DNA of 64,000 nucleotides from Roseicyclus sp. (GTDB lineage Bacteria; Pseudomonadota; Alphaproteobacteria; Rhodobacterales; Rhodobacteraceae). Under the pieces are notes generated by a model. It was not told the DNA's origin. It was given only the letters and a program-made list of their open reading frames with translations, and did no database searches. Below are positions 46,744 to 47,477 of the stretch, piece after piece. A program made the translations under genes and the position numbers. The DNA lies in the NCBI RefSeq assembly GCF_018402035.1, contig NZ_JAGYJN010000008.1, forward strand, positions 1 through 64,000. The letters run 5' to 3'. Numbering within the stretch: position 1 is the first letter of the stretch; every line of letters starts with the position of its first letter.

Positions 46744-46789
46744 AAAAAGAAAAGGCGGTGACGCCTGAGGGAGGTCAGGTGTCACCGCC
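46744..46789 (-). terminator. Terminator ending the DUF1127-sRNA transcript
   Basis: Stem GGCGGTGAC / GTCACCGCC plus inner CCTGA / TCAGG with loop CCTCCC, followed on the minus strand by TTTTCTTTTTGGG. It doubles as the last motif-bearing hairpin of the array. Confidence 0.88.
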
Positions 46790-47036
46790 TACGTTCAGCG
46801 CCAAGGGAGGAGAAGGCGCCGATCTTGCGTGCAAGGCGCAGGGCGCGCTTGCGGAATAAGGCGGCGGCGGGGCCTAGGGAGGAGGAGGCCCCACCGCCGG
46901 ACGTCACGGTTCCCCAAGGGAGGAGGAGAGGAACCGATCAGCATGGCCCGTTGCCGGGCCGGGTCGTGCTGGGCCCATCCTAGGGAGGAGGGGGATGGAC
47001 CCGCTAGCCAAGCAATCCCAAGGGAGGAAGGGATGC
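46744..47036 (-). ncRNA. Array of six stem-loops with CUCCUCCC-type loops (CcsR-like sRNA cluster)
   Basis: Downstream of the DUF1127 gene on the same strand, six hairpins each show a loop complementary to GGGAGG: H1 47012-47036, H2 46971-47002, H3 46907-46936, H4 46863-46898, H5 46798-46819 and H6 46754-46789. Exact CCTCCTCCC occurs in H2, H3 and H4; H1 has CTTCCTCCC, H5 TCTCCTCCC and H6 only CCTCCC. On the plus strand H1, H3 and H5 read CCAAGGGAGG, while H2 and H4 read CCTAGGGAGG, suggesting duplication of a two-hairpin unit. Between H2 and H3 a hairpin without the motif (46945-46960) may be a processing site. R. sphaeroides CcsR1-4, made with a DUF1127 mRNA under RpoH control, is the known parallel. 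The motif equals the anti-Shine-Dalgarno sequence. Confidence 0.85.
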
Positions 47037-47087
47037 CGAGCCATTCTTTTGTGCCGCCGCAAGGCCGCACATTATTTCTGCCGCGCG

Positions 47088-47321
47088 TTAGCCGCGCTTG
47101 CCGTAGGCCGCTTCGAGCGCGATGCTGCGCAGCATCGAAGCGTTGAGGCCAAGATCGGCCAGCTCGCGCGTCGAGAGCGCTTGCAATTCTGTCAGCGTCT
47201 CACGATAGACGCGGTGGGCCCGCCATGCGGCGACGATGTCTTTGCCGATTTCGGTCAGGCGCGCGCCGAGGCCCATGCCGTTGGAGATCGTGCGGTTGCT
47301 CGTTACATATGCCATTTTCAT
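47088..47321 (-). CDS. Small DUF1127 protein (CcaF1-like)
   Basis: A 77-residue basic protein. The C-terminal half AWRAHRVYRETLTELQALSTRELADLGLNASMLRSIALEAAYG is the DUF1127 motif (YRxxxxELxxLxxRELxDLGL), an arginine-rich helical element. In R. sphaeroides the homologous RSP_6037 protein (CcaF1) binds RNA and affects the maturation of the CcsR sRNAs encoded after it. The same order is seen here: gene, hairpin array, terminator. A hairpin at 47051-47070 lies between stop codon and H1. Start ATG 47321 is used; ATG 47315 is an alternative. Confidence 0.9.
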   Translation of the reverse strand: MKMAYVTSNRTISNGMGLGARLTEIGKDIVAAWRAHRVYRETLTELQALSTRELADLGLNASMLRSIALEAAYGKRG

Positions 47322-47419
47322 CACTTTCTTGCTTGGGCGGGCGAGCGCCGAATTGCGCTTTGGCTCGTCTCAGATTTGTTCGTTTCATCCCCGCCTTGTC
47401 ATTGAAGATAGCCATATGC

Positions 47420-47468
47420 TGCATTTGCACAATGCACGATGCCTCAATGCTGCTTTGCAGCAAATGCA
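47420..47468. promoter_or_regulatory. Symmetric element in the divergent DUF1127 / MFS promoter region
   Basis: TGCATTTGC (47420-47428) and GCAAATGCA (47460-47468) form a 9-bp inverted repeat, with an inner GCTGC-TTT-GCAGC just before the right arm. The element sits 10 bp before the MFS start and about 100 bp upstream of the DUF1127 start, so it could control either. I could not identify a convincing RpoH-type promoter by eye. Confidence 0.4.
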
Positions 47469-47477
47469 TAGCTGGAG

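Follow-up and report, generated by a model that had tools for sequence, protein, structure and literature searches.

A probable ccaF1-CcsR operon of the Roseicyclus lineage with three two-hairpin units of anti-Shine-Dalgarno-type loops

Introduction

In R. (Cereibacter) sphaeroides, four CcsRs have been described (PMC10253847). CcsR1-4 derive from the 3' UTR of ccaF1 and an RpoHI/RpoHII promoter, their maturation involves RNase E and CcaF1, and they contact Hfq (PMC10253847, PMC8625941, PMC8307010). The part played by CcaF1 is complicated: according to one of these papers it promotes RNase E-mediated CcsR maturation, and according to another increased amounts of it interfere. RSs0680a consists of two stem-loops, each with an anti-Shine-Dalgarno motif (PMC3927594), and the view of DUF1127 proteins as RNA or protein binders is described as debated (PMC12501420).

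Here, we analysed a 64,000-nt stretch of Roseicyclus sp. DNA (NZ_JAGYJN010000008.1, positions 1 to 64,000; "the window"), one locus of which resembles the R. sphaeroides system (ccaF1 being RSP_6037, the CcsRs RSs0680a and homologues, RF02791) in several respects. Both have a DUF1127 gene upstream and two-hairpin units with CCUCCUCCC-type loops, although only three of the six loops in the window carry the exact nine-base motif. Likewise, the single promoter for gene and sRNAs and the terminator at the end have their likeness in the window, where both are predicted.

The likeness of such loops to the 3' end of 16S rRNA is well established, and cuckoo RNAs reportedly comprise two to four adjacent hairpins each, with CCUCCUCCC in the loops, and were found with a thermodynamic matcher (Reinkensmeier and Giegerich 2015). 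The cuckoo family, or CIN1 locus, agrees with the window in its adjacent hairpins, shared loop motif and variable stems, but against the reported two to four hairpins per RNA, the window has six in one presumed precursor. The cuckoo/CIN1 locus is associated with short DUF1127 genes (PMC10253847). The loop motif is also common to alpha-r14/ar14 (NfeR1, SmelA075; RF02344), which has it in each of three hairpin loops, but NfeR1 is an sRNA with its own RpoD-type promoter (PMC10746234). In RNAIII, CyaR and AbcR1, a C-rich loop pairs with ribosome-binding sites (PMC3927594). Their likeness to the window lies in the loop only, and homology is not claimed. These three RNAs are not known to have an array or a DUF1127 gene.

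Results

Six motif hairpins follow a DUF1127 gene

The minus-strand ORF in front of the array encodes a DUF1127 protein (PF06568, E 1.6e-11, 44.2 bits against a Pfam cut-off of 23.3). Its start was assigned by conservation in relatives to the ATG at 47315 (MAYV...) rather than to 47321 or 47324. The protein shares 93% identity with its counterpart in Rhodobacterales bacterium LSUCC0031 and 50% with that of Cereibacter ovatus, and the closest named relatives by DUF1127 similarity, among the best 80 of 151, belong to Roseicyclus, Roseibacterium persicicum and other Rhodobacterales. A second DUF1127 gene found in the same genome is without CCTCCC across its 3.1-kb locus. Four viral contigs (IMG/VR, L045-L048) encode a DUF1127 relative that matches part of the query at 48-50% identity; both strands of the fetched loci lack CCTCCC.

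Six hairpins with CCTCCC in every loop occupy 46753-47043 of the minus strand, 3' of the gene (Table 1). The motif starts at 47027, 46988, 46923, 46882, 46810 and 46774, each time within a hairpin; the minus strand of the entire window holds 13 copies, six in the array and seven outside. Exact CCTCCTCCC occurs in three of the six loops (46983-46991, 46918-46926, 46877-46885), whereas hairpin 5 reads CTCCTCCC, hairpin 1 TTCCTCCC and hairpin 6 has CCTCCC alone. None of 1000 dinucleotide shuffles of the 300-nt stretch gave six motifs (mean 0.94, maximum 4), and the six hairpins below -10 kcal/mol compare with a mean of 0.17 (maximum 2) in the first 300 shuffles. The 348-nt 3' UTR folds at -176.3 kcal/mol (z -6.2). 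An initial annotation, made from the sequence alone, had proposed a CcsR-like array behind a DUF1127 gene with six anti-Shine-Dalgarno-type loops, three of them exact, and the Pfam match, the loop counts and the shuffles bear it out on both points. Mechanically called ORFs overlap the array on both strands, those on the plus strand reaching 136 aa; they were set aside because the covariation described below is that of a minus-strand RNA.

Table 1 Features of the locus in the window
Feature	Position	Strand	Basis
Promoter-like element: TTGTGC (47432-47427), 16 nt, TATCTT (47410-47405)	47405..47432	-	Conserved block, 11 genus sequences
Inverted repeat CTGC-AAA-GCAG, 5' of promoter-like element	47450..47460	-	Conserved in alignment
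DUF1127 gene, ccaF1-like, 75 aa (MAYVTSNRTISN...AAYGKRG)	47088..47315	-	Pfam PF06568; conserved start
Hairpin 1 (unit 1), loop TTCCTCCCTT	47005..47043	-	Fold; covariation helix 1
Hairpin 2 (unit 1), loop CCCTCCTCCCTA, exact motif	46968..47004	-	Fold; covariation helix 2
Spacer hairpin 1, GGCCCG-GCAA-CGGGCC, motif-free	46945..46960	-	Fold; helix 3, 100% of cells paired
Hairpin 3 (unit 2), loop TCCTCCTCCCTT, exact motif	46907..46936	-	Helix 4; CcsR1 match 46859-46944
Hairpin 4 (unit 2), loop CCTCCTCCCT, exact motif	46862..46899	-	Helix 5; CcsR1 match 46859-46944
Spacer hairpin 2, motif-free	46831..46852	-	Fold; aligns poorly between species
Hairpin 5 (unit 3), loop TTCTCCTCCCTT	46795..46822	-	Helix 6; CcsR1 match 46750-46828
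Hairpin 6 (unit 3), 46753-46790, loop CCTCCC, then TTTTCTTTTT	46744..46790	-	Helix 7

The hairpins form three two-hairpin units

Motif centres in the window are spaced 39, 65, 41, 72 and 36 nt apart, and from this short/long alternation the hairpins were paired as 1+2, 3+4 and 5+6, with a motif-free hairpin standing between pairs (46945-46960 and 46831-46852). In C. ovatus (L080), spacings of 39, 92, 38, 65, 40, 65 and 40 nt give four pairs from eight hairpins. The RF02791 CcsR1 model spans hairpins 5+6 (46750-46828, 30.3 bits, E 2.5e-5) and hairpins 3+4 (46859-46944, 26.3 bits, E 3.7e-4), each time over positions 1-83 of 83. As one CcsR consists of two hairpins and the model covers a pair, the six hairpins correspond to three CcsRs. 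The two-hairpin unit recognised at the outset is thus supported by spacing, spacer hairpins and model alike, while the covariance-model search suggested along with it gave matches for pairs 3+4 and 5+6 only: pair 1 (hairpins 1+2) was unmatched by the CcsR1 model, and the two matches, although significant, lie far under the gathering score of 65.3 bits, which is missed through divergence of the stems from CcsR1-4. The same model gives four matches at the C. ovatus locus, the first of which (83.8 bits) is above the gathering score. For RF02344 ar14, the window yields sub-threshold matches of 30.8 (46854-46945, E 8.7e-4) and 25.7 bits against a gathering threshold of 58.8, a threshold that two matches in L125 and one in L073, both of them Loktanella arrays, do reach. 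Across the window, Rfam at gathering level finds one tRNA only.

Contrary to the initial annotation, the array is not expanded: its three units are fewer than the four of R. sphaeroides and C. ovatus. Tandem Repeats Finder detected no unit repeat in it, and stem likeness is 0.29 at lag 2 and 0.31 at lag 1, so that next-but-one stems are no more alike than neighbours. If duplication of units was the origin of the window array, it is old. An alternation of CCAA and CCTA beside the loops, taken earlier as a record of such duplication, holds for the first five hairpins, but the sixth reads CCTGA and relatives vary; spacing and spacer hairpins are the better evidence.

Stems covary within the genus

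A paired-motif pattern matches 12 of 13 genus genomes (own included) and has no match in G008, a genome 73% complete. By eye, the genus loci fall into seven arrays of six hairpins (window included), three of eight and one of 12 (L051), and Roseicyclus mahoneyensis DSM 16097 is a member of the genus with six; L052 has at least 11 before the contig end cuts its array, and the first loop of the eight-hairpin L057 is degenerate. Across the seven six-hairpin species, 96.5% of 488 cells were paired, a percentage biased towards the structure because it was derived from the same alignment, and 12 of 70 pairs had changed on both sides. Slid versions reached at most 49.2% paired cells and three two-sided pairs, and none of 500 shuffles attained either value. 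Ten of the 80 predicted pairs had been removed beforehand, four long-range and six in the badly aligned spacer 2; of these six, three had two-sided changes and five had broken cells, and their removal raises the percentage paired. With all 80 pairs, 17 show two-sided change. Two-sided changes are located in hairpins 1, 2 and 6 (six pairs in helix 7) and in spacer 1; in hairpins 3-5 (helices 4-6), every change is one-sided. The stems are thus conserved and covarying, as first proposed. With this locus, a known stress-RNA operon is also represented in the Roseicyclus lineage, by a member whose array is rather short for the family.

Conserved upstream element and shared neighbours

In the alignment of 11 genus sequences, a block at about 47400-47470 is highly conserved. 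Of the 81 regions upstream of such genes (best 80 of 151 relatives plus window), 65 contain ATTGTGCA. At the matching place, C. ovatus and Gemmobacter aestuarii read TTG-N17-CCCCATGTT, which resembles the sigma-32 pattern. The window, unlike Cereibacter with CCCCATGTT, has GGCTATCTT as its -10 region, and RpoH control of the window locus is therefore not secured; CTTGA-type RpoH patterns tried upstream of the window gene were absent. A TTG within the -35 element is important to RpoHI and RpoHII alike (PMC3441632).

CTGC-N3-4-GCAG occurs in 58 of the 81 upstream regions (best 80 of 151 relatives plus window). In the window, an inverted repeat TGCTGCAAAGCAGCA lies at 47448-47462, 5' of the promoter-like element, and may resemble a PhaR site. 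Among neighbours identified by tblastn in the fetched flanks of the best 80 of 151 relatives, UvrD-like genes were found at 53 of 80 loci, LysE-type at 30 and MFS at 20. A UvrD-like neighbour is common to the window and both Cereibacter loci examined, and common neighbours support orthology with these loci.

Array length varies across the family

For the family, 80 named loci from a GTDB genome scan (best 80 of 151 relatives) were combined with the window into 81 regions. Motif hairpins were found by a distance rule in 78 of the 80 loci; the exceptions are L068, with eight hairpins outside the rule, and L124, which stops at a contig edge. In the 81 regions (best 80 of 151 plus window), 691 of 700 CCTCCC sites within the array rule lie in hairpins, by a loose test. 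In the remainder of these GC-rich loci, the test likewise accepts 60 of 109 CCTCCC sites. Hairpin energies separate array sites from other sites (median -18.65 versus -9.1). Among 78 arrays with at least four hairpins (best 80 of 151 plus window; L068, L124 and the two-hairpin L091 excluded), three have fewer than six hairpins, 15 have six and 60 have more, counted with a detector that is off by about one at times (in L050, a spurious seventh was included). This places the window at the low end. Numbers range from two (L091) to 23 (L073) in the loci examined (best 80 of 151). The longest array among the best 80 of 151, in Loktanella atrilutea DSM 29326 (L073:2699-3700), has its 23 hairpins in tandem behind a DUF1127 gene.

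Strict short/long alternation was seen in 28 of the 78 arrays (best 80 of 151 relatives plus window), and pairs are therefore not universal. Next-but-one stems were more alike than neighbours in 51 of 75 arrays with at least six hairpins (same set of best 80 of 151 plus window). The L. atrilutea array repeats a 174-nt four-hairpin unit in 3.7 copies (94% matches), that of Roseicyclus sp. Amp-Y-6 (12 hairpins) a 104-nt unit in 4.6 copies (94%) and that of C. ovatus a 105-nt unit in 2.3 copies (96%). Judged from these repeats, recent array growth is the copying of a unit of about 104 nt or, in Loktanella, of the 174-nt four-hairpin unit.

In a broader genome search, at least one pair of exact motifs in tandem, at a distance of 18-48 nt, was present in 83 of 120 family genomes (one per genus, own included), against 19 of 120 for the reversed pattern, which also arises within longer true-motif runs. 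A class-wide pattern of three exact motifs matched none of 289 genomes, being too strict and missing this genome too. Exact-motif tandems occur at several places in some genomes, three in G025 (L147) and two in G411 (L133), and these are possibly paralogous arrays. In another genome (G019, L040:597-2755), four DUF1127-like open frames succeed one another on the minus strand, the first and the third each followed by motif pairs, a layout of gene and hairpin modules in alternation.

The last hairpin and the 3' end

In the window, TTTTCTTTTT, a T-tract, directly follows hairpin 6, which is the only terminator candidate identified and probably serves as motif hairpin and intrinsic terminator at once, as initially annotated. 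In C. ovatus, by contrast, inspection by eye shows an extra TCTCCC-loop hairpin before a T-rich end, with TTTT also behind its eighth motif hairpin. The further suggestion that terminator reuse is lineage-specific does not hold, since a T-tract behind the last motif hairpin is common: 55 of 79 loci (from the best 80 of 151 relatives) have one by a loose test, which asks for no more than four T in a stretch of about 14 nt and errs both ways. For example, L080 is counted despite a further terminator-like hairpin downstream, and L082 and L050 are uncounted despite a visible T-tract after the true last hairpin. Such T-tracts, here and in those 55 of 79 loci, would suit hairpins that merely stabilise and terminate the 3' end of the DUF1127 mRNA, with the loop sequence as a by-product. 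We regard this as very improbable: a terminator has no need of a motif kept at 700 sites in 81 regions, 691 of them in hairpins with diverging stems, nor of arrays of up to 23 hairpins and tandem exact motifs in 83 of 120 genera.

Candidate targets

In the regions upstream of 85 ORFs called mechanically, complementarity to the motif hardly exceeded that at random positions (five six-base duplexes versus one), too small a difference to speak for or against target pairing. Outside the array, GGGAGGAGG occurs at five sites in the genome. Three of them precede a possible start codon, an ATG at a distance of 6 nt, a GTG at 8 nt and the TTG of a 19-codon frame at 9 nt; the other two precede none. 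The ORF of the ATG-linked site (L001:1487-1509) follows an ECF-sigma-like ORF and a 133-aa ORF (names by eye); its protein was matched in 10 of 13 genus genomes, nine of which, own included, keep GGGAGGA. This site is a possible CcsR target and a weak lead, as its conservation may reflect coding constraint, given the overlap with the upstream ORF end, or a strong ribosome-binding site. The sole GGATCACCTCCTTT site found in this genome lies outside 16S, by context, and a longer 16S-type pattern matched none of the 13 genus genomes.

Discussion

With a probability of roughly 85%, we read the locus as the ccaF1-CcsR operon (CIN1/"cuckoo") of the Roseicyclus lineage, processed into target-pairing sRNAs. 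The gene, the hairpins and their unit structure, the covariation, the conserved upstream element and the shared neighbours are observed here; for transcription, processing, Hfq and target pairing, we draw on published R. sphaeroides work. By analogy, a single stress-type transcript would start at a promoter near 47405-47432, run through the DUF1127 gene and three two-hairpin CcsRs and end at hairpin 6. RNase E would then cleave the 3' UTR, with a contribution from the DUF1127 protein, and the resulting sRNAs would expose C-rich loops of the anti-Shine-Dalgarno type. Probably together with Hfq, these sRNAs would base-pair with ribosome-binding sites of the GGAGG type on some mRNAs and reduce the translation or stability of these mRNAs during stress. 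The likely function is thus that of a stress transcript processed into sRNAs that would pair with ribosome-binding sites.

The array could also act mainly as one multivalent unprocessed RNA, whose loops (six here, up to 23 elsewhere) titrate many mRNAs, an RNA-binding protein (e.g. the DUF1127 protein) or G-rich sRNAs, with loop number setting the capacity. The loop motif is kept while stems change, hairpin number runs from two (L091) to 23 (L073) with near-identical recent copies (94-96%), and RNA sponges exist in bacteria in general (PMC12559287, on a different sRNA). Nevertheless, processing of the R. sphaeroides array releases individual CcsRs whose effects are known, and the spacer hairpins between units in the window and in C. 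ovatus fit cutting into monomers, which makes the multivalent RNA improbable and favours the processed CcsR operon.

Among the titles and abstract beginnings listed in a literature search, with key papers outside its reach, none dealt with array length variation or a 23-hairpin array, which is no proof of novelty. More speculatively, and in our estimate with the odds against it, these anti-Shine-Dalgarno arrays might be a copy-number-variable element of Rhodobacteraceae, in which blocks of two or four hairpins duplicate unequally and thereby determine how much of a general translation-dampening RNA is made, or its valency, and so tune the stress response by length. If true, lineages would adjust their stress response via array length, with six hairpins here, 12 in Amp-Y-6 and 23 in L. 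atrilutea. The locus fixes the array unit as two motif hairpins plus one spacer hairpin, and the series from two to 23 hairpins with its fresh copies offers a natural test of whether CcsRs act through the dose of monomers or through valency, and a way to ask what the DUF1127 protein does with the array.
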